This document shows, piece by piece, positions 848 through 25,785 of a stretch of 26,633 bases of DNA. Made by a program: the position numbers and the translations under genes. Every line of letters begins with the position of its first letter. Positions within the stretch are counted from its first letter, which is position 1. The notes under the pieces are model-generated. The model was not told where the DNA came from. It saw only the letters and a program-made list of their open reading frames with translations, and ran no database searches. This stretch comes from Neolecta irregularis DAH-3 (taxonomy: Eukaryota; Ascomycota; Neolectomycetes; Neolectales; Neolectaceae): contig LXFE01000330.1 of the NCBI GenBank assembly GCA_001929475.1, positions 1 through 26,633 of the forward strand. Reading direction: 5' to 3'.

Positions 848-1425
848 CTAGAAGTTTGTGAGATACCAATCTTTCTGGAGATACATCCAAATCAAAGTAC
901 ATGCTATCCAGTGTGAGTCTGTTGTCGTGAAATAGACTGCATACGGGCTATCAATATCGGACCGATCAATCCCGTACCTAAATTGGCCGATCGAAAGATT
1001 CGCCATTCTGATACAAAATGAGCAGTCGCTATGACAAAGGTCCACTGTGCCATGGTATAGACTCTAGAAAAATAAAAATAAAAAAAGAGATTGGACTACG
1101 TGGGACAATCGAGATTATATGCTGCAAATAGCCGTACAATCGCAGAGGTTATTGTCCATGTGCCAAACATCCGACTTGTAAGGGGTGTTACTAACTTCTT
1201 TATCCAAATGTCTCAATTGAAAAGAATACCTTGCTGGGGTTGATTCGTGAAGATTTTTTTCGTAAGGTCCTGTGTGAGGAAAGTTTGAACAGTATTCATC
1301 AAGCTGACAGTTCCAACCAATAACAACCATCTTGGCAGCCACCCAGAGGTATTGGGAATAAAATCTAGAAGAAATTCCGGGACGTCTAGCAGTATATCAG
1401 TTTGACCGACGTGTGATGAATACAT
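848..1425 (-). CDS. ERG28: ERG28-like ergosterol biosynthesis scaffold protein
   Basis: ERG28 is a small ER membrane protein that tethers the C-4 demethylation enzymes of ergosterol synthesis. Four exons (1425-1230, 1190-1100, 1063-945, 903-848) encode 153 aa, the usual family size. Recognisable blocks in order are GWLPRWLLLVGTVSLMNTVQ (exon 1), VTPLTSRMFGTWTITSAIVR across junction 1, an AHFVSEWRIFRSAN segment (family F-x-SEW motif), LGTGLIGPILIA, and a C-terminal TLIWMYLQKDWY. The three introns are 39, 36 and 41 nt and start GTATTC, GTAGTC and GTATGC; all reading phases agree. Several hydrophobic segments fit a multi-pass membrane protein. The ATG at 1425 lies 94 bp from the start of the divergent YIP4 gene. 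Identification is by motif memory only, but the order and spacing fit well. Confidence 0.88.
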
Positions 1426-1519
1426 TCAGTCATGATTGGTGAAACACAAATTTTATTTTGGTGGAGTTGACTGGCCAATTTCTCAACCTCAACTAAGCAC
1501 CGCCAATCTCATAGACAGT
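1426..1519. promoter_or_regulatory. Shared divergent promoter ERG28/YIP4 with three CCAAT boxes
   Basis: Only 94 bp separate the two start codons. The interval carries CCAAT on the + strand at 1475-1479 and 1503-1507 and ATTGG (CCAAT on the minus strand) at 1435-1439. CCAAT pentamers are the known recognition core of the fungal HAP/CBC (NF-Y) complex. That this complex acts here is inference. Confidence 0.5.
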
Positions 1520-2313
1520 ATGACTAGCAGTATCAGCAATGATGTTTTAATTGAAGCGGACGATGATGATTTGGAATTACTACATGGACCAGAAGCTTTG
1601 ACTTCACCATCACCAAGTCCAGCAACTTTGCTAACGGAAAATCGAGCTACCAACAGGAGGTTTACCGGAGGGGATACATTGGATGAACCAGTTACGACGA
1701 CAATCGTACGTTCCATTTATTATGTAGAACTGAACAAGACCGAGAAAAGAGATGCGTTTGCAGTCGCCCATAAACTTCGTCAAGTCTTGTATCCTCTTCC
1801 ATCATCCACAGAGCAAGCCTTACGCGATTGGGATCTTTGGGGTCCTTTAATATTCTGTCTGTTCCTCTCATTGTGTCTCAGTTTTTCTGCACCGAAAAAT
1901 CAAAGCGTCCTTGTCTTCACAGGCATTTTTTCTTTAGTCTGGTTCGGAGAAGCCATTGTGACAATGAATATCAAGGTGCTCGGCGGGAAAGTGTACGCTA
2001 TCTACTACAGAAATAATTTGAACACTCAGGTCAATGTTCCAGTCGGTGAGCATTCTCGGATATGCGCTTGCTCCCTTAGTCGTAGCGAGTTTGATTGGGA
2101 TCTTTGTGAAAACTTGGGTTGTCATGTTGCCGCTTTCTCTAGGGATGTACGCTTGGTCTATCTATGGTATTCTTTCGCTTAGGCACTTTATCAATATTTT
2201 CAGGTTCGAGGATTGTCGTAACAAGCTCCGGGATGGATCGAAAAATCGGACTAGCGATGTACCCGCTGTTTTTGTTTTACGGTGTATTATCGTATATCAT
2301 CATATTGTCTTAG
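1520..2313 (+). CDS. YIP4: Yip1-family Golgi membrane protein (Yip4/YIPF6 type)
   Basis: Yip1-family proteins are multi-pass Golgi/ER membrane proteins that bind Rab/Ypt GTPases in vesicle transport. Exons 1520-1705, 1745-1992, 2030-2166 and 2204-2313 give 226 aa. An acidic N-terminus is followed by GGDTLDEP and the family's TIKRD-like block, LRQVLYP, RDWDLWGPLIFCLFLSLCLS (the Yip4 signature and first membrane segment), GEAIVTMNIKVLGGK, SMFQSVSILGYALAP, then further membrane segments ending in AMYPLFLFYGVLS. Introns are 39, 37 and 37 nt. The first has no stop in frame and is recognised only because removing it restores TI-KRD; its 3' end is GAG, so that boundary is the least sure. The ATG at 1520 is the first in frame; an extra upstream exon cannot be excluded. 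Confidence 0.88.
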
Positions 2314-2491
2314 CGACGAAGCGAATATTTATTTTCTCTTCCAGAAACTCCGCGTCGTGGTACGGGATCATAAATATGGGAAATCAATCCATTCAGAATG
2401 AAAACTAAAAGTCTAATGTTGTTCCTGTGACGATCGCATTGATAGTGTGCCTGAGGAACCGAACTTGAAGAAAACTGAAATCATTGCATGA

Positions 2492-4467
<1,976 letters not shown>

Positions 4468-5234
4468 ATGTCCCTCAAACTGCCTATCGAGCTACTTCCG
4501 CTCATTCTAGGATACTGCTCTTCAAGAGATCTATCAAGTTTTCTCACAATTAACAGGACATTCTTTTTTATCATTACAAGAATACTAAGAAAGCGGTTAC
4601 AAGACCAGCTATACCGAGGCTATGAGTTAATTGTACGTCTCAGTCTCCAAGATAGGCTAATTATAGTTTGAGGCATATCAACCCTCAGAGAAGAATACTC
4701 TTCCTTATCTGTCTTCACATTTCGACCATGAGATATACCCGTATTGTACGTTTCAAGTTGGCGGCGATGCTGGATATTCCTTTACTATGGAGTATGAGGG
4801 TTTCGTGCAAATCATAGTACAGGTAAACGTCATCCGTCAAGTCCAACGGGGTGATACGAATTATCTGTCGGCCGTGATCCCTGTGCTTGAAGGCATTCAC
4901 TCATTCAAAGGATATCGCTGAAGTGTTAGAAATAATCCGACTCTATCGAAATTCGTTAGACGAGAAAAAGCATGACAACGAAATCGTCAATAGGCTCGGA
5001 AGTATAGCAATGCTGAAAAGCTCTTTTATGGCGAGGACAGAGAGAGGTGTTCTACTTGCTCATCACTCTGAAATCCCGGTGGAATATGAAATTCGCTATC
5101 AACAAATATTTTTGAACACGGGGTGCGGTTTCTACTTCCATTCACTGCTGATATCCAGCTTTCTACTGGCGAAAATCGAAGAAGCTGAAATCGTGCAATT
5201 AACAGCATCTGCACCACTAGTCGTCGCAGTATAG
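4468..5234 (+). CDS. Small F-box protein, function unknown
   Basis: The N-terminus reads LPIELLPLILGYCSSRDLSS, then FLTINRTFFFIITRIL, which fits an F-box (the Skp1-binding motif of SCF ubiquitin ligases). The rest is unrecognised. At first sight the gene looks broken, because the frame changes twice. Two short introns repair it: 4633-4666 (34 nt, GTACGT donor, GGCTAAT branch-like site, TATAG end) and 4874-4910 (37 nt, GTGATC donor, CACTCAT, CAAAG end). Phases agree at both, giving 231 aa from exons 4468-4632, 4667-4873 and 4911-5234. The middle exon contains YPYCTFQVGGDAGYSFTMEY, not low-complexity. The ATG at 4468 precedes the F-box by four residues. The alternative is a twice-frameshifted pseudogene; the intron model is preferred because the same intron class occurs throughout the window. 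Confidence 0.65.
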
Positions 5235-5259
5235 CAACGCCTAGTATGGTATTTACATT

Positions 5260-5778
5260 CTAAGAATGTTTAAGCCTTTCAACAATCGACCGTTTGCTGA
5301 CAACCCCCATCTTTAACTCCTCTTTCAAGACTTCAAAAGCATTTTTGATATCCGTAATTCCTTGAAGTTTGGCATTCAAGTCATCTGCACTGATTGGTTT
5401 CGGGCAATAGCTCTTCAGTATTTCCGCCTCTTCCTCTTCATTCTGAGCTAAATCCTGCCTTCCATGTAGTCGAAATTCGTTGGCTGAATCTAGATGTTTC
5501 TTCATGGAAGATTGTAACAGGTGGATTATCTCGGCTGTCGTAGTAATTGGTTTAGGCGAGTGGGTGGAATATGTTATATCTGATATCACAGTCTATTACT
5601 TTAATCGAATAAGACTAAAGAATAGAGATACTTTTAACACATTGAGTTTCTGTTTATCTTTTTGTTTCATCGAGGTTTTTATATCTTGGCGGATTTGAAG
5701 GAGAACCGTGGGAGTCTGAGATACTGATGTTGAATTGAACCGTAGGCATTTATGAAATATTAACCTCTTTCGAAACAT
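5260..5778 (-). CDS. AIM41: AIM41/YqeY-like (GatB/YqeY domain) mitochondrial protein
   Basis: Two exons (5778-5632 and 5592-5260) joined over a 39-nt GTATCT...AATAG intron encode 159 aa. The N-terminus is basic and rich in Ser/Thr/Arg, consistent with a mitochondrial presequence. Then come IRQDIKTSMKQKDKQKLNVL, an acidic helical EEEEAEILKSYCPKPISADD block and a C-terminal helix with GITDIKNAFEVLKEELK. This pattern (a short helical domain with the E-x-x-x-LxxYLP-like core) is that of the YqeY/Aim41 family, related to the tail domain of GatB amidotransferases. The biochemical role of Aim41 is not settled. It runs convergently to the F-box gene, with only 25 bp between stop codons. Confidence 0.75.
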
Positions 5779-5786
5779 TCTTGATA

Positions 5787-5939
5787 ATGAGTGATATTCG
5801 GGGAGGTTGGCGCGACGAAGAAAAATTTGGTGTTACAAAAAACCCATGGGCTTCGGCCAATCCACATGTTCACAACATTGGGCAGCTGGTCTCACTCTCA
5901 ATATTTAGTTCACAATTGCCTATCGTCACACACATCTAG
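5787..5939 (+). CDS. Possible small ORF, unrecognised (50 aa)
   Basis: An ATG-started frame of 50 codons reads GGWRDEEKFGVTKNPWASAN near its start, which looks more protein-like than chance sequence, then loses that character. It begins only 8 bp from the AIM41 start codon on the opposite strand, leaving no room for a normal promoter. It may therefore be a decayed gene, an exon of a longer transcript or chance. No intron that extends it could be found. Confidence 0.25.
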   Translation: MSDIRGGWRDEEKFGVTKNPWASANPHVHNIGQLVSLSIFSSQLPIVTHI

Positions 5940-6117
5940 TGTCCGGATACGTCAACAATATCCGTTTACAAGTATCCCCATATAGCCTTGTAAGTATATA
6001 AAGGGCTACAAACGAAATGGTAAATTGAAAATACATGTTTACCACTGGAATGCAACTAACTCTGGCAAGGGTTAGCAAGGAATGTTATGGACTTGTTTGT
6101 GTATTGACAATATCAGC

Positions 6118-6379
6118 CGGCCGTCACGTACCCGACCGACGACACCTACCCACCGAAGTGGGTGGATATCAGAACCACCGGGTGGCAACCACCAACAATG
6201 ATTTTATTATTCATATTTCAAGTATTTGTCGCATATTCAGTTATTCTAATACAACTTCATTGATAAACTCCGTTTTGTAGACCGATATGAAGATATATAT
6301 TGTTAACAGTACATATCTCTGGTGGGTGGATTACTAATCCACCCGGTGGCCCATCGGGTGGTTTGGCCACACTGGGTAC
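6118..6379. repeat. Foldback-rich GGGTGG/CCACCC block
   Basis: The block opens with a GC-rich run of CCGGCC/ACCCGACCGACG/ACCCACC words and closes with GGTGGTTTGGCCACACTGGG. It contains a perfect hairpin at 6324-6344 (GGGTGGATTA / TAATCCACCC around one base) and a CCACCGGGTGG palindrome at about 6176-6186. The closing words resemble the right end of the TIR element at 16441-16542 (GGTTAGACACACTGGG), suggesting a diverged relative. The left end does not match clearly. Confidence 0.4.
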
Positions 6380-6522
6380 AGTTTGGTTTTGCTTATCGTC
6401 GTCACCTCTACCTAATTTCTGGATTCCTCAATAGCACCCCCTTACATAAACGTTTCCTAATCAAAATTTACCTTTTCTCTCCTTGAAATAGTTTTGCTTA
6501 CATATGGCCTTCATGTTTGAAC

Positions 6523-6661
6523 TAAGCTCAGCGCCGATTTAACCGACACCCCCCTAAACCCGACACAATATCCTAAACCCGATACAATATAATTATATAA
6601 TAAGAATTCCATATGTTGTGTCGGGTTTAGCGGGGTGTCGGTTAAATCGGCGCTGAGCTTA
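6523..6661. mobile_element. 139-bp MITE-like palindromic element with TA ends
   Basis: Two arms of about 49 bp (6523-6571 and 6613-6661) are inverted copies differing at only two positions. They begin TAAGCTCAGCGCCGATTTAA and end with the complement. The outermost TA on both sides fits the TA target duplication of Tc1/mariner-type elements. The centre is AT-rich. The left arm's inner 19 bp (6553-6571) are followed by a near-exact tandem copy (6572-6590, one difference). The near-identity of the arms suggests recent origin. No transposase is encoded, so movement would need one supplied elsewhere. Confidence 0.8.
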
Positions 6662-6882
6662 TGTCAGGAATGTTTGCGTAAGTGAACTACCAAATCATTG
6701 ACTGGCTGTATTTCACTAAACTGTCAAGCTCTATTTAATTCAATTCCTGTACAATAAATAGGTTCTTCTGAGTGGGTTAGGGATAAGGCAACAGATGATT
6801 TAGTCCCTATGCCTAGCAAATATTATTATTAGAGACATTGCTAAAAATATAGATGGAAGCATTCCACAACTAGGCTAAGGTG

Positions 6883-7565
6883 ATGACTGATGAGAACGAG
6901 AGCTGCAATAGATTTGAGGACAAAAACCATGGTAAGATAAACTCTGAATATATCCTCCTTTGTAGTATGGCGCGAGCGGATTTTTGATTCTGAATGTAGA
7001 GATTTGTTCATTGGCACCTCCTGGCATATGTGCCACCTTTCTAAATCATCTCGGCATGAAGATCCCGAAGTCCCATCACAACCCATATCGCTCGAATTGC
7101 CACTGAAATGTCTCTTTTCTTGTTCATGACTCCTGTAAGTTCACAGCAGCTGGCGAAACGGCTGAGCAGAAATTACACGCTTTGTGAGTGTTGAGCAGTA
7201 CGCGATTTAGGCTAAAGCTTGAAGCAAATCCAGGTCCCTCCTCCATCGCTATGGCAGTTGCACTTCCACTAATCATTGTTTTTGGAGGATTGTTGGGCAT
7301 GATAATTATAATGATAACAACACGAACGCACCGGAAAATTGATTTCTCGAAGTCGGACAAGGGGTTTGTCGTAGAGTTAAATGTAACTCTGATCGGCAGG
7401 ATGCTTCCCAAACGAAAGACTCGGGGTGAACGAATCAGGACCATTAACAGCGATGAGATCAAACTCAAAGATTGGAGCTCATCTGAAAATGTTTATTTAT
7501 CGAACCCGGCGCTGATCAATGTTGTTCATGCGAACCTGGCATTAAGAGAGCTTGAGAGCGACTAA
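6883..7565 (+). CDS. Unrecognised single-pass membrane protein (multi-exon, structure partly resolved)
   Basis: Exon 1 (ATG 6883-6931) joins exon 2 (6966-7109) over a clear 34-nt intron (GTAAGA, CTCTGAAT, TTTGTAG). The joined frame reads VWRERIFDSECRDLF, then a Trp/His/Cys segment GTSWHMCHLSKSSRHEDPEV. A 37-nt gap 7110-7146 with a weak GTCTCT donor would continue to SAGETAEQKLHAL. Then a TGA at 7185 interrupts the same frame, which reopens as LKLEANPGPSSIA, one strong membrane helix (MAVALPLIIVFGGLLGMIII) and a basic/Ser-rich tail to the TAA at 7563-7565. A GTGAGT donor sits exactly at the stop, but the only in-phase acceptor would make a 27-nt intron. I do not recognise the family. The N-terminal half is probably lumenal or cytosolic and the tail on the opposite side; which is which cannot be told. 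Confidence 0.55.
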
Positions 7566-7800
7566 ATTTTACTGTACAAGGTGTTTTGACCAGATTACAC
7601 CGATCCCGAAGAATGTTATAATTCTGGGACCATCTCCTGTTTGTTTGAATATTATGGATAGATAGGTGTAATGGTGAGCAAATATCAATTATAATTAGAT
7701 GGAAGCCCAAGATGCTATAGCCTAACTTATGCTGTTTCTCAACTGAGGATTTGTTTATCTTAACATTTCTAGATTGCTAAAGAAGCCATAAATCATTCCT

Positions 7801-9521
7801 TTATCGACGAATCGCCTGGGTTCCCGCCCAGAAGATCAAGGGAACCATTATGTTGTCATTTTGTTCGGAGATACCTTCGTATATTCCTAAGGATGAGTAA
7901 ATGGGCAAAGACGAGGAGATACCTGTTAAAACTACAACCATAACATATTTCCAGAAAGCTGATCCCAAAGTTGTCCACTGCATAGCAACAACAAGCCAAC
8001 TCCCTAGAAGAACAAAGAGGATAAAAGCAAAAGTACCTTCAGCGGTTTTCTTCGTTAGAAACCACTTTCTCCTTCCAAATAATTTGCCGAAAATACTGGC
8101 CATTGAATCACCTAAACCCAAACTAAGTATCCCGACATAACCATCGATCTCAAAATCCTGTTTCGAGTACATTGATAGAAATATTGGTAAAGAGCACCCT
8201 AGGAGGAGATATATATGTGAAATTATTAGAGGTCCGCGATGGTCCCTTTCGTCTGTGAAGTGTTGAAGAAAAATATTTAGTCGCTCAGAGAACGGTAGGA
8301 GATGAGTAATCCGTAACAGTTCTGTGAATACGAACACAAAGAGCGCTAGTGAAAGGGCGAGGAATGTGAATGGTTTCTTGCATGTTAGAAGTATGTGAGG
8401 AGGAGATTAGTACATCCACAGAGATGGTGGGCAGAAAGAGCACAGTGACGAGCAGATGGAATGATTTCCTACGAAGATTGAGAATGGACGAGGTACAGCT
8501 AGATTCTGGGAGAAAGAATTTATCAACCATGAAGACCGTTCCTAAAATTAGGGCAGTCCAATATGCGAGGATCGAGAGTCGCGTATTGCATCCTGGATCT
8601 TTGAACATGTAGAAAATCATCCATAATATGGGGTCGCTATTGAGATGATTTGCGATCCAGGGGCGAAGAAAAACGAGAATGTTGAAAGCGAAAATCCCAT
8701 AAACTAGTATTGCGCACTTCCACCGTTCATACAGATGCTCGCTCTTCGCATTTTTTGACTTCCGAAGGAAAGGGGTTGAAGGAAAAATACAAAACAATGC
8801 GCCAAATGTAAAAGCAACAAGAAATAGTTCTTGAGGAGATGAAATATTATGTCGTAAGAGGAAAACGGAAGCTATAGTCGCGAGAAATTCCTCCTCCAGA
8901 GTGAGAGATGCTCCAGTCAGAGAATCAACAATATCAAGGACGCAAACGAAAAGGTTTGCAGGTTCCCATGATATCCAATATAGGAGATTTGCTGGAGAAC
9001 TCGGTAGATGGGTCAAGCGTTCGAGTACGAGCAAAAAGAATATAACGAGATCGCAGGTACGATATTCGGGTTGTGAGAATGCGGCGACAATAAGTTCTGG
9101 AAATAGGGCAATATAGAGTATGATGGTGCCGTAGCGCCTGTGACTACTATCAGGTTTAAATGGTAAATAGAGAGCCTAATATACGGGATGAATAACTGGT
9201 ATAAAGATCCCAGCGTCCAAATAGTGATACCAGATATATCTATGATCTATTCAGATCATATGATTGAGAATCCAGCCTGATACCTCTTGGAAATTGAAAT
9301 CCAAGGACAGACCTCAGAACGAACAAGGTCAATGCCTCGGTAAAGCTTCTTAAAGTATGATTATTCCATGATAAAATTTTCCTAGAATCTGTCGTTTCAG
9401 AATCATTAACTCTCTTTGACCAAGATATTCCGAACTCGAGGTGGCATCTGGTGATGGGAGACTCGTTTGAAGGTATTGTTGGTACGATCAAATGGGACGA
9501 ACTGGGTGGAGGTTTGGACAT
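7801..9521 (-). CDS. SEC59: Dolichol kinase
   Basis: Dolichol kinase makes dolichyl phosphate from dolichol and CTP in the ER membrane, the lipid carrier for N-glycosylation, O-mannosylation and GPI anchors. Five exons (9521-9284, 9239-9185, 9146-8414, 8376-7923, 7886-7801) encode 521 aa with many membrane segments. Signature blocks are RRKSFHLLVTVLFLP and, near the C-terminus, LSLGLGDSMASIFGKLFGRR followed by KKTAEGTFAF, the CTP-binding region of the family, then YEGISEQNDNIMVP. Introns are 44, 38, 37 and 36 nt with agreeing phases. The last is in frame and stop-free and is inferred because removing it restores the family's L-T-G-x-x-EG-x-S-x-QNDN spacing. The N-terminal 79 residues are hydrophilic and poorly conserved. 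The gene ends convergently to the membrane-protein gene. Confidence 0.88.
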
Positions 9522-9652
9522 CAATACTATATAAGTATCAGCAGGCTAGCATTTTAATTTTGATCGAATTTTCCCGAAATATTGCTAAAACCTCTTCTTC
9601 ATATGATCAATAATCTTTTCACCCTCAAATGATTTCCTTTCTTCCGAGCTGA

Positions 9653-10015
9653 GATAAGACTGCAGGTCCCTTGCCTGATTTTTACTGGGAAAGGTATGAA
9701 TATTAGAGCGATAAAAAGATGTTCTCAAATGTCAGACCAAAGCCTTTTATCCGATTAAATTAACAGAGTTCTAAATTCCAGACATTTTTGTCGAGGTTAC
9801 ACGGTATCTAAAAGAATCTGATCCACTGACGATACACAACCTTATTTTTAAACTTTTCTCATATGTACAATGGCTTCCCCTTATGGATCAGGATGTTGCG
9901 AATGAACTTCTTCCGTATTCCCTGCACCATGTTCGAGCTGTTAGTCGAGATTTTAAATGTATGCAATTTTCAAAGACCTTTATCTAGAATAGTTGTAGAA
10001 GAAAAAATGGGTTGA
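9653..10015 (+). CDS. Unresolved small gene or gene remnant
   Basis: Two coding-like pieces are visible. The first (about 9653-9693) reads KTAGPLPDFYWER and runs into a GTATGA donor. The second, from 9782 after a TTCCAG acceptor, reads DIFVEVTRYLKESDPLTI, then a hydrophobic helix IFKLFSYVQWLPLM and ELLPYSLHHVRAVSRDF. A 34-nt GTATGC...AATAG intron (9956-9989) then joins to FVEEKMG and a stop at 10013-10015. The pieces cannot be joined in phase by one short intron (the gap is 88 nt and the phase is wrong), and no start codon is evident. The family is not recognised. It could be a real gene with an exon I miss, or a decaying one. Confidence 0.4.
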
Positions 10016-10093
10016 GGATATTGTGATTCATTGTACTGTCCACATGATAAGGCTCGCTAGCGCCGGCTTGGCGTATTCTTCATTCAAACTCTT

Positions 10094-11529
10094 ATGGTTA
10101 CCTCGCCATTACCACCAAAGCAACTTTTCTTCGGACGCATTGCTTATACACTATCTTCCAGAGAGCTTTTCATCCACAAGAGGGCTGCTATTGGTGTTGA
10201 CGGGTTTGGAATTATCGCCTTTTTGGACGATACTGTTTCATCAGCTGAAGAGGCCGCTGAAAAATACCAATTCCAAGATGCCGACGTAGATTTATCGTCC
10301 ATAGCCCATCTAATAGATAGGTAACGCTCCTATCCACCTCGCAATTTCTTTTTCCAGGGCTTATTGATACCCATATACATGCATCTCAATATCCCAATTG
10401 TGGTATAGGAATGGATCTTCCTCTCCTCGACTGGCTATATAAATATACTTTTCCTCTTGAATCATCTTTCTCGAATCTTGAATTCGCGAGAGATGTCTAT
10501 ACTACTGTTGTTAAAACGACCTTGAAGCATGGGACAACGACCGCTGCGTATTTCGCCACGTTGCATCTGGAGGCCACAAATCTACTAAGCGAAATTTGCT
10601 GGAAATTAGGACAAAGGGCGTTCATTGGCAAGGTACATTGGTTGTCCAATGCGAAAGCTGATGATCAAAAGGTTTGTATGACTACACTAGCGCCGAATTA
10701 TTATCTCGAAAAATCGGAAGAGGAATCACTTTCTTCGACAAGACAAAGCATCGAATATATACGCAAAATCGATCCTCAATTCTCGCGCATATCACCAATA
10801 ATAACACCCCGGTTTGCACCAAGTTGTACGGCAAGCCTTCTTCTTGAACTAGGCAATCTCGCGGAAAAAGAATGTCTTCCTATTCAAACACATCTTGCAG
10901 AGAACAAAAGAGAGACCGAATTGGTGAAATCTCTGTATCCAGAAAGTTCGAGCTATACAGATGTTTACGACAAGGCTAATATATTAACAAAAAGAACAAT
11001 CTTAGCTCATGCTATTCACCTGGATATTGAAGAACGAGATCTAATCGCCAAGAGGGGAAGTGGGGTCTCTCATTGTCCTGCTAGTAATTGTGCTATATCA
11101 AGTGGTATTGCACGAGTAAAATGGCTGTTAGAGGTACCTTTGCTCAAGCCAAGCAGCTGTTGACTTTCAAAGGGTGGAGTTAAAGTTGGTCTCGGAACAG
11201 ATTGTAGCGGTGGCTACTCCCCATCTGTTCTTGACGCGGCAAGACAAGCAAGCCAAGTCTCAAGGCTTCTACCAGATCCTTCAAAGTCCAGGCTTTCGCT
11301 GGCAGAACTTTTGTTTCTTGCCACGCTCGGTGGGGCTCAAGTCTGTGGCATTGCAGACAGAGCTGGAAGCTTTGAACCTGGGAAATGCTGGGATGCGATC
11401 TTGGTTGATATCGGGGAAATGGACTACTGGGACGATTCTTCTATTTTGCAAAAGTGGGTTTTTGGCGGTGATGATAGACATATCAAAAAGGTATGGGTTG
11501 ATGGCAAGTTAGTGCACGAGAATTTATAA
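10094..11529 (+). CDS. GUD1: Guanine deaminase
   Basis: This amidohydrolase-superfamily enzyme hydrolyses guanine to xanthine and ammonia in purine salvage. Exons 10094-10285, 10321-10632, 10672-11133 and 11173-11529 give 440 aa. Visible motifs are PGLIDTHIHASQYPN (metal HxH), a GTTTAAYFAT strand, APSCT, IQTHLAENK, LAHAIHL, GVSHCPASN and GLGTDCSGGYSPSVLDAAR, which carries the catalytic Asp. The C-terminus ends KKVWVDGKLVHENL, typical of the family. Introns are 35, 39 and 39 nt. The second (10633-10671) is in frame and stop-free; removing it gives GKVCMTTLAPNYYLEKS as in relatives. The first joins QDAD to VTLLSTSQFLFPG with a CTAAT branch-like site. Its presence implies the organism can use guanine as a nitrogen source or recycle it. 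Confidence 0.93.
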
Positions 11530-11637
11530 GCGTCGAATATAGATAGACTTTGGCTGCAGAATAGACTTCAGGGTAATGAATCTGTATTCTCAGTCCTGTG
11601 TGGAGAACACTGGTTGGTGAACCTTGATGTTTACTTT

Positions 11638-12321: not shown

Positions 12322-12339
12322 GATTTCCTGTACATTATT

Positions 12340-12357
12340 TAATATGACGTCATATTA
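12340..12357. promoter_or_regulatory. Perfect 18-bp palindrome with a CRE core
   Basis: TAATATGACGTCATATTA is its own reverse complement and contains TGACGTCA, the classical ATF/CREB-type bZIP binding site. It lies 18 bp after the hydrolase stop and 90 bp before the ATG of the next gene, a natural position for an upstream activator or repressor site. Binding is inferred from the motif only. Confidence 0.6.
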
Positions 12358-12446
12358 GGGGTATGCAATCAAAGCAAGCATGATTTCTCAGTCGACCAAT
12401 CACCATTTGTCAATCCCGCATATCTTGTCCTACTTATCCTCTCTTT

Positions 12447-15106: not shown

Positions 15107-15870
15107 CTAGGCAATGCCACGTTTGGGGGAATGGGATTTACTTCGTCTGGGACTAGGACTTCTTCTTCGACCGACACTTGGACGACTTACACTTGGAGAT
15201 CTGCTCCGTGAACAACTTCTTCCCCGAGAAATGCTTCGACTTGACCTACGTCATCAACCCAGCCAAGAAGAAACTTACCGGCTATCATAACTCGAATAAC
15301 TGGCGCTTCTGCGCCGTCTTCTATATGGACTACGGGATCGACTTCGGGGTCGATAGCTATCACCACCACCTCGTCCACTGCGTCCTCTAAACCCGCCTCT
15401 CCCTCGTCTCGCAGCAGGGGGTCTTCGGATAACGATCGAGACGCTGATTTCCGATCCATCAAGCTGTCCCTCATGCATATGGGCGATAGCTTTCTTCGCC
15501 TCGAAAGAAGAAGAATAAATCACGTAAGCGACTCCCCGATTAGCGTTTATTACAGAGTTGATAGGCATGTCGATTGATGTAATTTCTCCATAGAGAGAAA
15601 ATATTTCTTTTATATGAGCCTCCTGAACGTTTTTCGTCAGTTTTTCAATAACAATCTAAAAGTCAGTCTTGATCGCCTCATATTCAAACTTTGGAGCTTT
15701 CAAGCTTCGCTGGCGAACGGGAGCGGCTTCGAGATGGGAGATCGAGGCGACTTCTGGATCGCGAGCGTGAGATGCCTTTCGAGGGCAAACGACCGCGGCT
15801 CCTAGAACGAGCTCTTCTGGGTGAAGGAGAACGTGGCCTGGAGATTAGTGGTGGTCTGTCGAAGAGGCTT
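15107..15870 (-). CDS. RNPS1-like SR protein with one RRM
   Basis: Proteins of this type bind pre-mRNA and connect splicing, the exon junction complex and export. Three exons are visible: about 15870-15690 (5' end open), 15655-15279 and 15245-15107. Exon 1 is an RS region (RPRSPSPRRARSRSRGR and similar). Exon 2 is a single RRM with RNP2-like IVIEKLTKNV and RNP1-like GVAYVIYSS, then AHMHEGQLDGSEISVSIVIR and an RGG-rich linker. Exon 3 ends in a second RS tail. Introns are 34 nt (15656-15689) and 33 nt (15246-15278, GTAAGT donor), both in phase. RS-RRM-RS order is that of RNPS1. No in-frame ATG precedes exon 1: the frame stays open past 16004 without one, and the ATG at 15869 is in another frame. 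A missed 5' exon is likely. Confidence 0.7.
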
Positions 15871-16662
15871 GCATTTTTTTGGTCGAAGGTGTTTGGTTGG
15901 TGCTTGTATTTCCAGTATGTAGTTGAAGGTGCAGATGAATAAGCGATCAGTTGGCTTAAATATACAACAAGCCTTTTACATATATTGAAATCCTTCCCAA
16001 GCACTCTTTCGATATTAAGGAAGAATTCTATTGTGGAATGGAATAATATCCTGATATAATCTCACTCTTCCAATATGCTCGCAAAGCATTCATAGCAAAG
16101 TGTTGGCTGTAACGAAGGAAAAGATAGTAATTCTGAAGAGGAGATAGAAATTGTGGATATATGGGAAAAAGTGTCCTTTGAAATCTCTTGAGAATCTTTT
16201 GCTAAGCCTTGAAAGGTACACAAGATCTTGATGCAACTGAATCATTATCGCTTGGTGTCATCGTATCTTCGTACTACTACCTCTTCAAAGGAATAACAAT
16301 AGAAGCGCCTAGAATTTTGTTGTCTTTCTATAATATATATTAGACCTCTCGATTTTCAATCTTGTTTGATAAATCTCATGATGAAGTCATCTTATAACTC
16401 CCATTTAGTGCTCATGAGAACAGAAAGTACAAAAATTGTCCAGTATGTCCAACCGCCCACCAGCCCGCCGGAGAAATAATGACCCGCCAGCCCGTTGGAG
16501 GGTCTTTGACGGTGGCGGGCGGGCGGGCGGTTAGACACACTGGGTTGGACCCAAAATGTCAGTAAAAAGGCGTTTAAGTCAGACACGTGAGAAAAATCAT
16601 CCGTTAATCGCAAAAACTTACAAACCTCCTTTGAAAAAGAACAATCCAACATCCAAAAACAA
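15871..16662. other. Intergenic region between RNPS1-like gene and helicase
   Basis: The two genes diverge here. The first 130 bases may still hold part of the RNPS1-like 5' region. The stretch 16000-16400 is AT-rich with no visible gene. The TIR element 16441-16542 sits 120 bp upstream of the helicase start codon. Confidence 0.4.
16441..16542. mobile_element. About 100-bp GC-rich TIR element
   Basis: The left end reads CAGTATGTCCAACCGCCC and the right end, read on the minus strand, CAGTGTGTCTAACCGCCC; these are inverted copies. Both continue into CCGCC-rich DNA, and a GGAGGGTCTTTGACGG core lies near the right side. The same terminal words and core occur at the ends of the element 25970-26398. 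It is very GC-rich in an AT-rich setting. No target duplication was clear. It has no coding capacity and looks like a minimal non-autonomous copy. Confidence 0.65.
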
Positions 16663-18341
16663 ATGATACTTCGGTCAGGATCGAAGTCTCTTTATACCTG
16701 CTGGAGATGCCAGACACGGGGAATAGGTTCGAAGTTTCCCTCTGCACATTCGCTGTTGTCGATGGAAAAGAATGCAGAGTCGATGGAAAAGATTACAGAG
16801 AAACGAAAGAAGCATGAATCGCCAAGGGAGCCTCTGAGGTTGGATTCAATGGAAGCAGCTTCATTTCTTGTATAGTCCGCCATGGGATTCGCCTTCTCAT
16901 TCTCCAGGATGTACACATAAAGCCTCAGTTGGTCGCTACGTTACAAACCGCTTTCCCCGAGGTTAAAAAACCCACAGAACCCCAAAAACAGCTTCTCTTG
17001 GCCCTACATCACAAATACAACCTCATCCTCCGATCCCATGCCGGGACCGGGAAAAGTCTGGCGTTACTTCTCTATCTCCTTTCAACTCAACGCGTTTCTC
17101 ATAAAGACCCTGCGACATCTTTGTCCTTTCTTTCTATATCATGCTTGCTGCTTGTACCGAGCGGCGATCTGGCCATTCAGTGTAAATCCTGGGCTTATAA
17201 GCTTCTCGGAAACCTGCCTGAAAAAGAGAGGGTCGTACAAATTCTTTTTCGAGGATCTAAAGAAGAGGAGTCAGAGCAGGATCAATATCATTCAATCCAT
17301 CCTCGTCCACATCTCTTAATCGCGACACCTACTAGGCTACTTGATCTTATTTCAAATAACATTAGATTTGATTTTCGAGATTTACGGATATTAGCATTAG
17401 ACGAAGCAGATTTACTGATAGAACCGCTCAAAAAGTATGCTTTAGAGAAGGAAATTCAAAAGCGCAAACATCACGTTCCACCGGCTGAAATTCTTATCAA
17501 CTATGTTCTACAGCAACAGGAAATGTGGGCAACATATGCGAAGCTACCGAATATTCACTTTGTTGCAATCAGTGCAACTGCAAATCAGCGATTAGCTGCT
17601 CAAATATACAAAAATAAATGGGTTAGGGCTATCAGCACAATTGGGATGGACCCACCAGGGGGTGTATGGGGATGGGATCTACGTATCCCTAAGAGCATTC
17701 AACATTCAGTATTGTTGTCCTCCACTTCACTGGATGCGACATTACCAACGACCACTCATTTTAATAAAACGATTGAAGATAACATCCAGAGAAAAGAGCT
17801 TCTAGATCAAGCTTGGAGAGAAGGAAAAGATATTGAGCCGAAGCCAAAATTTGATGAGCGGTGGATTAGTGCCATCGTCAAGATTTTAAAGCACGAGAAC
17901 ACAAGAAACGCAATTATATTCCTCCACCACCAACTCTCACTGAATAAATTACGTCAAGGGCTAAATGATGAGGGTATCGAAACGAAATTGGACATGAAAA
18001 CACACAAAGATAAAGTTATGATTGCTCATCCGAGGGCTGTTCGTGGTTTGGATCTCGACATTTCCCTTGCAATATGTCTTGGATTACCACAAGGTGGGAC
18101 TGAGTATATTCATATTTCTGGACGCGTTGGAAGAACGGGTCGCCCAGGCAAAGTTATTACAATTATTTCTGAAGGTGAAGCAAAGGAGATGGCAGAACTG
18201 CTCCTGAAAATTGGCTGTCGCTCCACTACTTACTGGGTACAGCACGATAAATCATCGACACATATTTTGACATCTACCCCCAAAAATCAAGAGGATCTCG
18301 AGAATCAAGGGGAAAGTGATATTAATTTTGTCGGCACTTAA
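16663..18341 (+). CDS. MRH4: MRH4-like mitochondrial DEAD-box RNA helicase
   Basis: Mrh4 acts in assembly of the mitochondrial large ribosomal subunit. Two exons (16663-16869, 16908-18341) joined over a 38-nt GTATAG...CTCCAG intron encode 546 aa. The N-terminus is basic with a CWRCQTRG segment and few acids until residue 30, fitting a mitochondrial presequence. Helicase motifs in order are the Walker-type SHAGTGKS (motif I), ATPTRLLDL (Ib), LALDEADLL (motif II, DEAD), ISATA (motif III, SAT), a FLHHQ-type Ib/IV region, AHPRAVRGLDLD (V) and HISGRVGRTGRPG (VI). The unusual motif I and the divergent Q region are what distinguish Mrh4 from other DEAD-box proteins, so the assignment is fairly but not fully certain. 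Confidence 0.8.
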
Positions 18342-18495
18342 TCACTGTCCACTATGTGATTGTTTTTGCGCCGAATTGTTAATTTAAAGATTCCTGCTTG
18401 GATACCGCAAATAGCACTTATTTTTAGTCTTGTCAGTCGTATGCGAAGTGATTTAAGGCAAGTAGAAGAGCCGACGGAATTTTTTAATTTGTAAG

Positions 18496-19285
18496 GATAG
18501 TCGGATTTAACGTATTGGGGTACGATCACGATGTCTTAGAATGACATTCAATAGGGTGTGAGCTTTATGTGTCCGGATTGTTGGCTCGAGTAGACTTTGG
18601 CTGGATAATTTGATATACGATGGGTGCCTTTGAGAAGTAACTACATATATTATTATGCGCTTAATGCCTAATGCCTGGTCTGCTAATCAGACCAGGTGGT
18701 GTCTATATAACAATTTTACACCCCCTGATTCTGCCTCCATGATTTGTTAGGACTTATAGTCCATTATATTTACCAATACGGTCAGTGGCGCAGGCTATAA
18801 CGGTATATAGGTATATAAGGAGGCAGGATCGCCACCCCTAACTTAGGTTCTCGCAACTCAAGCTAGAACAATATAACCTAGTCTTAGTTGTACTCGAGGG
18901 CCTAGGCTTACAGGTTTCATCTTCGCCGGAATTGGCTTGTTAGCACACAGGTTCCAATCGGAGTCTTACCCAGCATCAAAACCAAGTTCGCGTGCTGACA
19001 CATGGCAATACGCACTTAGTTTTTCCAGTTACAGCGCCAAGCCTCATCTCCTCCATACTCTACCACTGTTCCTATCTACCCCAGTAGTTACCTTATCCCG
19101 CTCCTTCAGAACTCCTATCGTTATCCCATATCTTTACATCATTTACCTCAGATACCTTGCATGGCATTATCAAATTATCCAGCCTAAGTCTACTCGAGCC
19201 AACAGTCCGGACACATAAAGCTCACCCTATTGAAAGTCATTCTAAGACATCGTGATCGTACCCAAGTACATTAAATCTGACTATC
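18496..19285. repeat. Large inverted repeat with about 120-bp arms
   Basis: The arms 18496-18615 and 19168-19285 are reverse complements with roughly nine in ten bases matching. They share the block TACGATCACGATGTCTTAGA and a TTTATGTGTCCGGA(C/T)TGTTGGC run. Each arm, read outward to inward, ends the same short frame (...FNVLGYDHDVLE, stop), and differences there are mostly silent. The 552-bp interior contains a hairpin and an LTR-like piece. Outside the arms the flanks are unrelated. It may be a foldback element or two inverted copies of one gene's 3' end. Confidence 0.65.
18771..18913. repeat. LTR-like repeat, copy 2
   Basis: This segment shares its opening (TACCAATACGG, then GTGGC and ACGG..TATATAG words) and its closing (TATAACCTAGTCTTAG, GTACT, TAGGCTTACAG) with 13144-13301. 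It lies inside the inverted repeat. The relationship is seen by eye with gaps, so a formal alignment is needed to trust its limits. Confidence 0.45.
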
Positions 19286-19784
19286 TTTAGTGTTGCCTTG
19301 TGCCAGAACGCGAACTTGATTTTGATGCTTCCTGCAGTCTTCCGCAATGTTTCTTGTCTCCCGACGCCAGTGCTTCCAACTTGGCTGGTTGCGCGCGATC
19401 GCCGATGGTTGTTGTGGGGGATTCTTGAGTCCCCACAAAAGGGGCTGATAGGATTCCAAGGAACCACGCAACATTAGTGTTACACTGGCCAGATTTTTAA
19501 GTTTTCAAAAGTAGTCGGAAGAATAATATTTGGCCTTGAAAGTGTTTAATTACTTCGTATCCGAGTTCTCGACCGATGCGATAGGTAAAAAAAACTTGCT
19601 TTTGGAACTATGACGGGAACATTTTTTGTTGAAGTTCAAAATTTCAAAGTTGTTCCTCTCCGTATTCAGTGTACTTACTAGCATACGATTGGTAATATAT
19701 GGTTACAAGTTTTTTAAAATATGAAAAAGATGAAAGATGAGTTGTGGGGAGATAGGCACTAGCAAAAGTGCTCGCCGCATCGGT

Positions 19785-19860
19785 CGAATAGTCTCCTCTT
19801 TCGTCTTCATCTCCCTTTTAACTCTTTCTCCCCTGAAAATATTCAGACCAACTCTCTGTT
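19785..19860 (+). promoter_or_regulatory. FAS2 core promoter, pyrimidine-rich leader
   Basis: The 75 bp before the FAS2 ATG contain long CT-rich runs (CTCCTCTTTCGTCTTCATCTCCC and CTCTTTCTCCCC type), as is common just upstream of fungal transcription and translation starts. No TATA box was assigned. Confidence 0.4.
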
Positions 19861-22800
19861 ATGACACCAGAACTTGAGCAGGAATTGGCTCATACCCTGC
19901 TTAGTATTCTCGGATCAGGGTTAAATCAGATTTGACTTTTTAGTCGAGCTACTTGCATATCAATTTTCGAGCTCAGTCAGATGGGTCGAAACACAGGATG
20001 TGCTCCTTGGAAGTAATGTTGAACGGCTCGTCGAGATTGGACCTTCTCCCATACTCACTGGAATGGCACAACGAACATTGAAGTTAAAGTATGAAAGTTA
20101 CGATGCTGCTCTTAGTCTACAACGACAAGTGCTTTGCTATTCGAAAGATATAAAGGAAATCTACTACGAGAAGGACCTCACGCCAGAGCCAGAGCCATTG
20201 GTTTCGATTTCAGTTCTGTCTGCTGCTCCGGTCGTAGATGCATCTGCTACAGGTGTTGCTCCTCCCCCAGCTGCCTATGCATCATCACAACCTGTTGAAC
20301 AAATAGCCGACGAACCCATAAAAGCTATTGACATTTTACATACGCTCATTGCACAAAAACTCAAGAAGACCGTATCCGATATTCCTGTATCGAAAGCCCT
20401 CAAAGATCTTGTTGGGGGAAAATCTACTCTTCAGGTATGCCTTCGTTTCATTCGCTCATTTTAAAAAGATAGAATGAAATTCTAGGGGATCTACAAAAAG
20501 AGTTTGGCTCAACACCTGAACGCCCTGAAGAAACACCTCTCAATGAACTAGGGGCCGTAATTCAATCCACGTTCAATGGTGCACTTGGAAAACACTCGGC
20601 AACCCTAATTGGAAAATTGATTTCCGGAAAGATGCCTGGAGGATTCAATCTTACCGCTGCTAAAGGTTACTTGAGCTCGAAATGGGGTCTCGGTCCTCAA
20701 AGGACTGACGGAGCTTTACTGTTGGCCCTTACAATGGAGCCTTCATCTCGCCTCAGTTCTGAAGCCGACGCCAAATCTTTTCTCGATTCTGTTGCTAAAG
20801 AATATGCCTCAAAGCAAGGGATCTCTCTTGCACTGCCATCTAGTAATGCTTCTGGCGGTGGTGGTGGGGCGGTGATCGATAGCGCTGCATTTGATGCATT
20901 TACCAAAGGTCAGAAACAACTTGCTGCCCAGCAACTTGAATTATATGCACGTTATCTTGAGAGAGATCTTCGGGCGGGTGATAAGGCTTATATCAACGAA
21001 ACAGTTATTTCTACAAAACTTCGACAACAGCTCGATCTATGGGCTACCGAACATGGTGACTTCTATGCAACCGGAATCGAACCAGTGTTTTCGAGCCTGA
21101 AAGCCAGGACATACGACTCCAGCTGGAACTGGGTTCGTCAAGATGCTCTCAGCATGTATTATGATATCATCTTTGGTCGACTGAAGCTCGTTGATAGAGA
21201 AATCGTTGCTCGCTGCATTGGCATTATGAATCGCGCTAATCCTACTTTGCTCGAGTACATGCAATGGGTTGTCGATCATTGTCCCCAAGATCGTGGAGAG
21301 AACTATCAGCTTGCTAAAGAACTTGCTACCCGGCTTATTGACAATTGCCGAGCAGTTCAGGATTCTGACCCCCATTACAAAGATGGTTATTTTCTTGGCG
21401 TCTAAAGTTTCACTAACCGTCTAGTTATGAGACCCACCGGGCCTCAAACTAAAATTGATGAGAAAGGCAATCTCACCTATGTCGAAGCCCCTCGACCCGC
21501 TGTTCGAAAACTGGAGCAATATGTTACGGAAATGGCAGCAGGAGGCAAGATTACCGAATACGCCAACAAGTTTAAAATCCAAATTGATCTTGGACGTATC
21601 TATCGAATTATCAAACAGCAGCATAAAATGTCAAAGAGCTCCAAACTCCAAGTTAAAAGCCTTTATGGCGAAGTTCTGCGAAGTATGTCAATGAACCAAT
21701 CCATTCTTAACCAGAAACCGCGCAGAAAACGGGGTCTTGATAAAGGCAAGAAAGAAAAAATTCCTTTTCTTCACATCAAGAAGAAAGAAGGTCAAGATTG
21801 GGAATTTAATAATAAGTTGACTGGTGTTTACCTTGACGTTCTCGAAGACGCCGCTCGTAATGGAATATCCTTTGCTGGAAAGAACGTGCTTATGACTGGA
21901 TGTGGCGCTGGAAGCATCGGCGCTGAGGTTATGCAAGGCCTATTGGCTGGTGGTGCCAATGTCGTTGTCACAACTTCACGTTATTCAAAAGAAGTTACAG
22001 AGTTCTATCAGGCGACTTACACTCGATATGGCTCGAAAGGTTCAAGCCTAATTGTTGTTCCTTTCAACCAAGGTGCACTTCATGTTTAAGCTTAATACTG
22101 ACATGTTAGGGAGCAAACAAGATGTTGATGCGCTAGTGAAGTATGTTTATGACGAAAAGACAGGACTTGGATGGGACCTCGACTATATCGTTCCATTTGC
22201 AGCCATTCCCGAAAATGGTCGAGAGATGGATATGATCGACTCTCGTTCTGAACTCGCCCATCGAATAATGCTCACGAATCTCCTCAGATTGCTCGGAAAC
22301 GTAAAGATTGAAAAAACAGCTCGAGGTTTCGATACTCGGCCAGCTCAAGTTGTATTACCTCTCTCTCCTAATCACGGAAACTTCGGTAGTGATGGTCTCT
22401 ATTCCGAGAGCAAATTGGCACTAGAGACTCTTTTCAACCGCTGGTATTCGGAGAGCTGGGCAAGCTACCTCACCATCGTTGGTGCTGTCATTGGATGGAC
22501 TCGAGGAACAGGCCTGATGTCAGCTAACAATGTTATTGCTGAGGGTGTCGAAACGCTTGGAGTCAGAACCTTTAGTCAACAAGAGATGGCCTTCAACATT
22601 CTTGGTCTCATGTCCCCGAAGATCGTCGACCTTTGTCAAATTGAACCTGTCCATGCTGATCTCAATGGTGGGTTCCAGTTCATTCCTAATCTTAAAGATG
22701 TCTGCTCTCAACTGCGGGAAGAACTTATGGAAACTTCGGCAATTAGGCAGTCAGTAAACAGAGAGACTGCCAGAGAGCACAGCATTGTTAGTGGTGCCAA

Positions 22801-25785
22801 AGCCGAGAAACTCTACAAACAACAAATCATCCAACCTCGTGCAAATCTGAAATTTTCATTTCCTAAAATTTCGCGCCCTTTGGATCATCTAGTGGGAATG
22901 ATCGATCTAGAGAAAGTTGTTGTTGTTGTTGGTTTCTCTGAAGTCGGTCCCTGGGGAAACTCGCGAACTCGATGGGAAATGGAAGCTTATGGAGAGTTTT
23001 CTCTTGAAGGAGCTATTGAAATGGCCTGGATCATGGGATTAATCAAAAATCACGACGGCAGATTGAAGAACGGGCAAATCTACTCGGGGTGGGTTGATAC
23101 GAAAACGGGCGAACCAGTCCAAGATGCAGAAATCAAGTCTCGGTATGAGAAACATATCCTAGAACATTCCGGTATACGTTTAATTGGTAATATTTATATT
23201 ACTATCTTGTTCTGACCATTTTAGAAGCCGAACTTTTCGGTGGCTATGATCCAAAGCGAAAAGGTCTCCTCCAGGAAGTCGTCATCAATCATGACCTTGA
23301 ACCATTTGAAACGTCATCGGATGCTGCAGCAGAATTCAGGCTCAAACATGGTGATAAAGTTGAGATATTTGAGATCAAAGAAACCGGCGAATGGACTGTC
23401 CAGTTCAAGAAAGGTGCATCTTTGCTCGTTCCAAAAGCTGTTCGGTTCGATCGCTTTGTTGCTGGACAGATCCCAACCGGTTGGGATGCTCGCCGATATG
23501 GTGTCCCTGAGGACATCATCTCTCAAGTAGATCCGGTCACTTTATACGTGTTGGTGGCGACCGTTGAAGCCCTAGTTTCTTCAGGGATCACAGACCCATA
23601 CGAACTCTACCAATACGTCGGTATTTCAGAAGTTGGGAATACCATAGGTTCTGGAGTGGGAGGAATGAATGCTCTCCGAGGAATGTACAAATACCGATGG
23701 GCGGACAAATCTATTCAAAAGGATATCCTTCAAGAGTCATTCGTCAATACAATGTGCGCTCTTCCTTTTCCCCATAACTGAATATATAGTGCTGCTTGGG
23801 TTAACATGCTCCTCCTTTCATCGGCAGGGCCCATCAAGACGCCAGTAGGTGCTTGCGCCACAGCTGTCGAATCCATTGATATTGGTGTTGAGACCATCCA
23901 AAGTGGAAAGGCCAGGGTTGTTATTGCAGGCGGTGTTGATGATTTCCAAGAGGAAGGTTCGTACGAATTTGCCAATATGAAAGCTACCAGCAATTCCCAA
24001 GAGGAATTCTCTCAAGGCCGCTCTCCGAGGGAAATGTCTCGACCAACCACGACCACCCGAAACGGCTTTGTGGAAGCTCATGGCTCTGGGATTCACGTTC
24101 TCATGCAAGCAAAACTCGCTCTCCAAATGGGAGTGCCTATTTACGCCGTCATCGCCATGTCTTCCACTGCTACAGACAAGGCTGGACGATCCGTTCCGGG
24201 TATCTCTTTGAGCAAGAAAAATGCTAATGTGCCAGCTCCTGGTCAAGGTATCTTGACCACCGCTCGAGAACAATCAAGCAAATTCCCATCGCCTCTTCTT
24301 GACATCAATTATCGAAGACGACAACTCGATCTCAGGAAGAAGCAGATTAAGGCTTGGACAGAGTCCGAGCTTATGTATATGAATTCTGAGGTGGCTGCCA
24401 TCAAGTCCTCTGGTCCGAATTTTGACCGCGAGGAATTTCTCCTTGAGCGAGCACAGCATGTCGAAGATGAAGCAAACAGGCAAACCCGAGATGCCCTCAA
24501 TATTTGGGGGAATGAATTCTGGGTCAAAGATTCTCGTATAGCTCCTCTTCGGGGCTCTTTGGCTGTTTGGGGACTTACCATTGACGATATTAACGTTGCT
24601 TCCTGTCATGGAACCTCAACTGTTGCAAACGACAAGAACGAACCTCAGACGATCGCAAAAATGCTCCGCCACCTCGGTCGCGGTAAGGGAAACGCATTGT
24701 TGGGAGTGTTCCAAAAATATCTAACTGCTCACCCTAAAGCACCTGCCGCTGCTTGGATGATGAATGGTGCTATACAAATTCTAAACTCGGGGATAGTTCC
24801 TGGAAACAGAAACGCTGATAGTATTCCGAGCTTTTTGACTAGATTATCTGACTCAATTAGACATTGATCGAGCTCTAGAACAATATCCTGAATTTGTCTT
24901 TCCTAGTCGCAGTATTCAAACAGATGGAATCAAAGTAGAGATCCCCCAGTCTTTGTTCATCTAATTTTCCAGGCGGTTTCTATTACATCATTCGGATTTG
25001 GTCAGGTCGGCGGTCAAATAATCGTGATCAATAAAGACTATCTCTTCGCTGCTATTGACGAACATGATTTCAAGGTGTACAAGACAAAGATGGAAGATCG
25101 TTACAAGAAAGCTTATAGATATTACCATACTTCGCTCGCTGAAAACAACATGTTCGTTGCAAAGGAGGGGCCTCCACATACAATTGAACAAGAAAGCGAA
25201 GTCTATCTTAATCCCCGGGCTCGAGTGAATTTAAACAAGAACACTGGTTCATACCGCTACCCTTCCGACTTTCAGAAGCGTTCCGAACCAAGCGCTAAAA
25301 AAACTACAGAGATGCTTTCTGCACTAGTCGACTCATCTGGCCAGAATGTCGGTATTGATGTTGAATCAATTTCCACGTTCAATATCGACAACGAAACTTT
25401 CATAAAGCGTAACTTTACCGATATCGAGCAACACTATTGTAAAAGCGCAGCGTCTCCTCAGTCCAGCTTTTGCGGAACGTGGAGTGCCAAAGAAGGCACC
25501 AGATTCGTAATATTTCGTTTGCTGACATTATAGCGGTGTTTAAAAGCCTCGGAGTCAAGAGTCAAGGTGGCGGCGCTAGCCTCAAAGATATCGAGATTAT
25601 ACGGGATAGCAATGGAGTTCCAGTTGTTCGATTGCATAGAGGTGTTGCACAGAAAGCTACTGCTGCTGGTATTACAAATGTTGAAGTGAGCATTTCACAC
25701 GATGAGTTCCAAAGCGTAGCAGTTGGTGAGTATATTATGTTATGAGATTCGCTAATTGTAAGCCTTTGCTCAAAAACGAAATTGA
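19861..25785 (+). CDS. FAS2: Fatty acid synthase subunit alpha
   Basis: The alpha chain of the cytosolic alpha6-beta6 fungal fatty acid synthase carries the acyl carrier, ketoreductase, ketosynthase and phosphopantetheine transferase activities. Twelve exons encode 1835 aa, full length. Introns are 19904-19943, 20435-20472, 21386-21424, 22073-22109, 23187-23224, 23754-23789, 24200-24235, 24821-24860, 24935-24972, 25496-25533 and 25726-25762 (36-40 nt each). Landmarks in order: [21 protein letters not shown] attachment serine in [23 protein letters not shown] loop [12 protein letters not shown] and [14 protein letters not shown] nucleophile [13 protein letters not shown], then [13 protein letters not shown] and [13 protein letters not shown] with the two active histidines; [11 protein letters not shown] and [16 protein letters not shown]-terminus [18 protein letters not shown]. 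The tenth intron begins GC. The seventh is in frame and stop-free. FAS1, often adjacent and divergent in ascomycetes, is not next to it. Confidence 0.97.
25496..25533 (+). other. GC-AG intron 10 of FAS2
   Basis: The 38-nt interval starts GCACCA and ends ATTATAG, with a GCTGAC branch-like site 14 nt from the end. Removing it joins SAKEG... to [11 protein letters not shown], the conserved PPT-domain motif. The only GT nearby (25507) would leave the wrong frame. Confidence 0.8.

Follow-up and report, generated by a model that had tools for sequence, protein, structure and literature searches.

The window analysed here is a stretch of 26,633 nucleotides (nt) from the genome of Neolecta irregularis DAH-3, an ascomycete of the subphylum Taphrinomycotina, and corresponds to contig C306 of our genome sample. 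Its plus strand carries FAS2 and the genes for a guanine deaminase and a helicase-like protein, its minus strand GAL7, and these genes are interrupted by very short introns. A first-pass annotation had proposed 37 introns of 33-44 nt in 12 genes of the window and had read them as members of a genome-wide class. We find that the main intron class of Neolecta measures approximately 31-47 nt, with a median of 37-38 nt, at every place examined. Thus, the narrow class holds up, while the claim that all introns fall between 33 and 44 nt does not, since one intron of 30 nt and others of 152 and 259 nt were also found. Among the 37 introns proposed in the window, 18, in three of the 12 genes (FAS2, GAL7 and guanine deaminase), are backed by homology or by a deposited protein.

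Introns in the window and in Ubp21

Introns were placed using a protein-to-DNA spliced aligner written for this analysis, in which the cost of an intron is constant throughout the range of 15-300 nt and no length is favoured. The references were 14 non-Neolecta proteins for FAS2 and 14 for Ubp21, a gene outside the window, in each case taken from the 119 non-Neolecta matches listed. In FAS2, all 14 foreign references gave identical placements for ten introns (Table 1), nine of which are GT-AG and one of which is GC-AG. Eleven introns of 36-40 nt had been proposed for this gene; ten of them are therefore confirmed by the references, and for the eleventh the basis is the deposited Neolecta protein only. 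The FAS2 protein as spliced in the first-pass annotation shares 99% identity along its whole length with the deposited FAS2 of N. irregularis DAH-3, while the next matches reach at most 66%. The deposited protein shares all introns with our alignment except the GC-AG intron; in its place, the model cuts 50 nt at 25484-25533, and the conserved SAKEA is lost.

The four GAL7 introns have exactly the lengths that had been proposed. The spliced protein matches structures of galactose-1-phosphate uridylyltransferase, with residues 3-355 of 356 covered by the best GalT match; HPHGQ, a motif of this enzyme, is present only once the 42-nt intron is removed. Similarly, removal of three introns gives a guanine deaminase that is continuous against 2UZ9.

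Table 1. Introns in the window, with the evidence for each
Feature	Position	Strand	Length and properties	Basis
FAS2 intron	19904..19943	+	40 nt, phase 1	14/14 references
FAS2 intron	20435..20472	+	38 nt, phase 0	14/14 references
FAS2 intron	21386..21424	+	39 nt; branch-like CTAAC, A 8 nt before end	14/14 references and branch prediction
FAS2 intron	22073..22109	+	37 nt	14/14 references
FAS2 intron	23187..23224	+	38 nt	14/14 references
FAS2 intron	23754..23789	+	36 nt	14/14 references
FAS2 intron	24200..24235	+	36 nt, multiple of three, no in-frame stop	14/14 references; missed by gene finder
FAS2 intron	24821..24860	+	40 nt	14/14 references
FAS2 intron	24935..24972	+	38 nt	14/14 references
FAS2 GC-AG intron	25496..25533	+	38 nt	14/14 references; deposited model differs
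FAS2 last intron	25726..25762	+	37 nt	deposited Neolecta protein only
GAL7 intron	3584..3627	-	44 nt	structure-protein alignment
GAL7 intron	3266..3306	-	41 nt	gene model and structure-protein alignment
GAL7 intron	3071..3112	-	42 nt, interrupts HPHGQ; in-frame, no stop	structure-protein alignment
GAL7 intron	2663..2700	-	38 nt	gene model and structure-protein alignment
Guanine deaminase intron	10286..10320	+	35 nt	gene model and protein alignment
Guanine deaminase intron	10633..10671	+	39 nt, in-frame, no stop	read in sequence; GKVCM contiguous in 2UZ9, query already spliced here
Guanine deaminase intron	11134..11172	+	39 nt	gene finder and protein alignment
Predicted intron, helicase-like gene	16870..16907	+	38 nt	gene finder only; Helicase_C match downstream

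Three introns in Table 1 (3071-3112 on the minus strand, 10633-10671 and 24200-24235) have a length divisible by three and no in-frame stop codon, so that their retention would leave a full protein; in this very small sample, avoidance of such introns is not apparent. We also considered a deficit of stopless introns of this length type, which would be a signature of nonsense-mediated decay, and make no claim, because the gene finder is biased against such introns and several clear ones exist.

In Ubp21, spliced alignment gave ten introns of 31, 31, 35, 32, 31, 34, 34, 37, 41 and 40 nt. Five of these are supported by 14/14 references, four by 13/14 and the sixth by 7/14, with the remaining seven references choosing another 34-nt intron close by. 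Isolated references proposed odd alternatives (17, 28, 29, 34 or 108 nt). At the border of the aligned stretch, one reference and the deposited protein support an eleventh intron. Over the part compared, the deposited Ubp21 model (L032:6949-9985, minus strand) agrees with the alignment for seven introns (32-41 nt), including the intron with 7/14 support, and removes 52, 46 and 55 nt in place of the three 31-nt introns. As a consequence, it lacks the blocks DIQLNVK, VLVHS and EEIKPGMI, which are nearly invariant in all 14 orthologs and are restored by splicing of the 31-nt introns. The loss of these conserved blocks suggests that the gene-calling pipeline had a floor on intron length. Both the deposited and the 31-nt versions keep the frame, so that use of alternative acceptors is conceivable. 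Ubp21 and FAS2 are the two deposited Neolecta proteins that were compared. Because the 31-nt introns and the GC-AG intron are mis-spliced, conserved residues are missing from both, which is of practical concern as this species is used in fungal phylogenomics.

Intron lengths in the genome sample

Genome-wide searches covered 8.96 megabases (Mb) in 363 contigs, which would be approximately 62% of the published assembly. The genome paper (PMC5309816) reports 14.5 Mb, 5,546 genes and RNA sequencing support for 99.4% of genes; here and below, literature values are taken from excerpts of the cited papers. As one test of length, we measured the DNA between adjacent partial matches to the domains RRM, Helicase_C, AAA, Pkinase and TCP1. 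The 311 rows, which did not include the matches to the U2AF large-subunit model described below, were filtered for adjacent pairs separated by no more than 400 in the DNA and 12 in the profile; 85 pairs passed, and all others were excluded. The test is nearly blind to introns with a length divisible by three. In 68 of the 85 pairs, the gap implies an intron of 31-47 nt (median 38). The others comprise 14 gaps of at least 60 nt, two of 56 and 59 nt, and one of 7 nt. Among six of the 14 large gaps that were inspected, two are long introns (C181 and C248), two are insertions in the same frame (C5 and C48) and two, read by eye, combine an insertion with a short intron (30 or 35 nt; C191 and C312). 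Long introns seem to be real and a minority; examples are a 152-nt intron in a gene for an RRM protein and one of 259 nt in a helicase gene. The shortest intron seen, also read by eye, measures 30 nt and lies in a kinase gene, which we take to be GCN2-like.

The same class emerged from a gene finder with a flat length prior that was trained on 282,662 bases in 30 stretches (two pairs of which overlap). Introns of 31-46 nt made up 41 of 70 predictions with a prior of 15-300 nt, 77 of 110 with a prior of 15-150 nt and 93 of 130 when a branch term was added. A length-informed run served for drawing gene models only and was excluded as evidence on length. In FAS2, gene-finder introns of 61, 70, 53, 120 and 125 nt from the version with the 15-150 nt prior were rejected as wrong, because spliced alignment placed the true introns of 36-40 nt beneath them. 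Finally, counts of donor-branch-AG words against Markov-generated sequence gave observed/expected ratios of 1.18-1.37 at 32-43 nt versus approximately 0.65 in most other bins. This is a weaker test, as the excess is modest and the distant bin at 88-91 is equally high (1.32), and it was replaced by the domain-gap test and spliced alignment.

Intron layout and splicing machinery

The layout of donor, branch site and acceptor was analysed in 92 introns, comprising the 20 aligned introns of FAS2 and Ubp21 and 72 different ones predicted by a version of the gene finder that had no branch model. In the aligned introns, where GC was permitted, the donor is GT in 19 cases and GC in one; in the 72 others, GT-AG was imposed. 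The donor is weak, with positions +3 to +6 carrying 1.5 bits. The predicted branch site is a weak CTRAY, and the commonest hexamer occurs in 8 of the 92 introns. By contrast, its position varies little. Among the 73 introns that could be scored, 55 have the predicted branch A at 6-9 nt from the end, as do 16 of 18 in the aligned set, in line with the first-pass observation of branch words close to the acceptor; strict YTRAY matches at this distance were found in 42 of the 73. The donor-branch span is 24-33 nt in 63/73 scorable introns and 17/18 aligned ones. Pyrimidines are not enriched after the branch (fraction 0.55 versus 0.61 before it). A branch-like motif near the 3' end was present in 70 of 97 introns, a set that derives partly from the model with a branch term, as opposed to 18% of 3000 control segments. 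The 152-nt intron ends likewise, in GCTAACTACCAG, with the branch word approximately 7 nt from the end.

The genome that carries these short introns is intron-rich. FAS2 and Ubp21 have approximately ten introns each, and 4202 introns were counted in Neolecta versus 862 in Schizosaccharomyces pombe (PMC7940399).

The two spliceosomal RNA candidates look conventional in the parts compared. The U2 candidate (132.8 bits) retains the standard sequence for branch binding, and at its 5' end the U1 candidate, with ACUUACCUG close to the start, also looks conventional. The earlier proposal of an adapted spliceosome accordingly finds no backing in these RNAs. Prp8 (PROCN), SF1-HH, RED_N and U6 gave no match in the 8.96 Mb; the control genomes gave none either, which makes these searches uninformative. 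Because the controls were blank and only 8.96 of 14.5 Mb were covered, absence of Prp8, SF1-HH, RED and U6 is not inferable. The model for the U2AF large subunit gave 17 matches in the contigs, none of them above the cut-off and all resembling generic RRMs, and is likewise uninformative.

A model for the short introns and its place among known systems

We suggest, with a probability of approximately 0.8, that these are ordinary U2-type spliceosomal introns that have been shortened almost to the minimum span and that are likely spliced by intron definition. In this model, which we derive from the sequence, two parts of most introns would be compressed, i.e. the segment from the branch A to the intron end, mostly to 6-9 nt, and the segment from donor to branch, to approximately 24-33 nt. 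Because the predicted branch A sits so close to the end, there would be no room for a polypyrimidine tract after the branch. Recognition would most likely proceed by intron definition, with U1 at the donor and U2 on the degenerate CTRAY, which we infer to be the branch site in use, and a YAG a few nt past the branch would serve as acceptor with no polypyrimidine tract. A steric limit, of approximately 24 nt from donor to branch plus 6-7 nt from branch to acceptor, may account for the floor near 30-31 nt. Deletion bias or selection for compactness would then hold most introns near this floor.

Several observations weigh against this model. The branch sites are motif predictions; 19 of the 92 introns fall under the threshold, and 18 of the 73 scored lie outside 6-9 nt. 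In one aligned intron, the best branch match is at 17 nt (with a weaker one at 6, by eye), and the 259-nt intron has a branch-like ACTAAT approximately 11 nt from its end. The U1 candidate scores 43.7 bits, under the Rfam cut-off of 69.5. Moreover, the gene finder is crude. With the flat prior, it got 6 of the 9 FAS2 GT-AG introns right, and its three versions returned 28, 30 and 33 introns above 46 nt with scattered lengths (33/130 with the branch term). We distrust these longer introns because the five in FAS2 proved wrong, and many of them are probably errors.

A different account of the cause, which is compatible with the layout described, holds that the length class is real and neutral. 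Strong deletion bias would act alongside an ordinary spliceosome, and the edge at approximately 31 nt would be the point at which splicing fails in any such fungus. This fits the conventional look of U2 and of the U1 5' end, the short median (45 nt) in the related Pneumocystis jirovecii (PMC7181583) and the persistence of long introns, which implies that there is no absolute ceiling. However, a donor-branch span of 24-33 nt is about half of the minimum of ca 50 nt in human extracts and of an estimate of 52 nt based on the human B complex (PMC6692369). Also, the predicted branch lies nearer to the intron end than in S. pombe, where the median is 12 nt by a method that missed most introns under ~75 nt (PMC4079972), and than in most fungi, with ~13-25 nt (PMC2483917). 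On balance, we see neutrality as a possible cause that is somewhat disfavoured.

The spliceosome itself may instead have changed. By analogy with human cells, the 3' splice site would be picked without contact between U2AF65 and a polypyrimidine tract, in an SPF45-like manner, and B-complex factors of the SMU1/RED type would allow the short donor-branch span. The lack of space for a tract after the branch is consistent with this idea, as are the human introns that resemble those of Neolecta, in which a truncated tract calls for SPF45 (PMC8363638) and a short donor-branch span for SMU1/RED (PMC6692369). By contrast with Neolecta, the human cases mostly measure 56-100 nt and are a minority of human introns. 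A search of the contigs for RED_N gave no match; it was blank in the controls too and covered part of the genome. We consider such an adaptation unlikely. Read more generally, the combination of an intron-rich genome, weak motifs, a branch-acceptor distance nearly locked at 6-9 nt and donor-branch spans down to approximately 24 nt would imply a changed 3' splice-site and B-complex step, a conclusion that we put forward only tentatively. If true, a locked branch in an intron-rich fungus would break the published rule by which only intron-poor species have a constrained branch position.

It is very improbable that the intervals are translated insertions or frame-breaking sequencing indels rather than introns: the three stopless intervals of Table 1 could indeed be read through, but 14/14 references concur for every one of the ten introns in FAS2, the deposited Neolecta protein of this gene shows identical introns bar the GC-AG one, GAL7 has no HPHGQ unless spliced, and the candidates combine GT/GC-AG ends and branch words with narrow lengths.

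Short introns of other lineages can be set beside those of Neolecta. The first-pass annotation had used filamentous ascomycetes as its yardstick. Neolecta introns are indeed shorter than the printed medians, which are 45 nt in Pseudocercospora fijiensis, 50 nt in Peltaster fructicola, 57 nt in Dothideomycetes and 45 nt in P. jirovecii (PMC7181583); since Neolecta belongs to the Taphrinomycotina, however, Pezizomycotina are not the best comparison. Pneumocystis, of the same subphylum, is similarly intron-rich, with ~5 introns per gene (PMC4764891), and has compact introns. The introns of Neolecta are shorter than those of P. jirovecii (37-38 versus 45 nt), with a floor near 30-31 nt. The microsporidian Encephalitozoon cuniculi has introns of similar length (mean 35.8 nt; PMC2483917) and a CTRAY-type branch site. 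However, its introns are few and the branch motif is strict, while Neolecta has thousands with weak motifs. Paramecium (median 24-25 nt; PMC12862383), the Bigelowiella nucleomorph and dicyemids share with Neolecta a fairly high density of ultra-short introns with weak donors (PMC2483917); these systems reportedly have no branch-point signature, whereas Neolecta has one at a nearly fixed position.

Two groups have been described in this respect (PMC2483917). Short-intron lineages have a weak donor and no branch signature, while intron-poor lineages have a fixed 3' structure and one dominant branch hexamer. Compared with the first group as given in the excerpt, Neolecta has the weak 5' splice site and, unlike it, a branch signature, as the YTRAY counts above demonstrate. 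Compared with the second, it has neither the paucity of introns nor the dominant hexamer. Thus, Neolecta, which is rich in introns that are short, have weak motifs and hold the branch at a nearly fixed position, fits neither published group. It offers a natural test of the minimum size of a spliceosomal intron in which the branch signal is kept, and of whether, as claimed, a fixed branch position arises only where introns are few. Short introns by themselves are already known in many eukaryotes; the combination of features in Neolecta seems to be new. Intron lengths for Neolecta were not found in the excerpts of PMC8476143, PMC10878826, PMC7940399, PMC8537764, PMC7912804, PMC7980564, PMC5309816 and PMC13263728, the supplements of which may give statistics. 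The main text of the genome paper (PMC5309816) contains no word starting with "intron", and the listings of the wider short-intron literature showed no Neolecta intron length.

Apart from the introns, the window contains several repeats. Direct repeats at 270-519 and 26048-26296, near both ends, are 81-84% alike and have the appearance of a dispersed repeat. Inverted repeats at 18492-18615 and 19168-19289, which are 91-97% complementary and separated by ~550-660 nt, may represent a small transposon. A further inverted repeat at 6518-6666 has 54-nt arms and a 41-nt loop. Elsewhere in the sample, locus L003, near the end of contig C218, has a G+C content of 0.59 versus ~0.41-0.46 in most other loci, and L041 on contig C5 is also richer in G+C by eye; both may represent foreign DNA in this assembly, which was produced from fruiting bodies.

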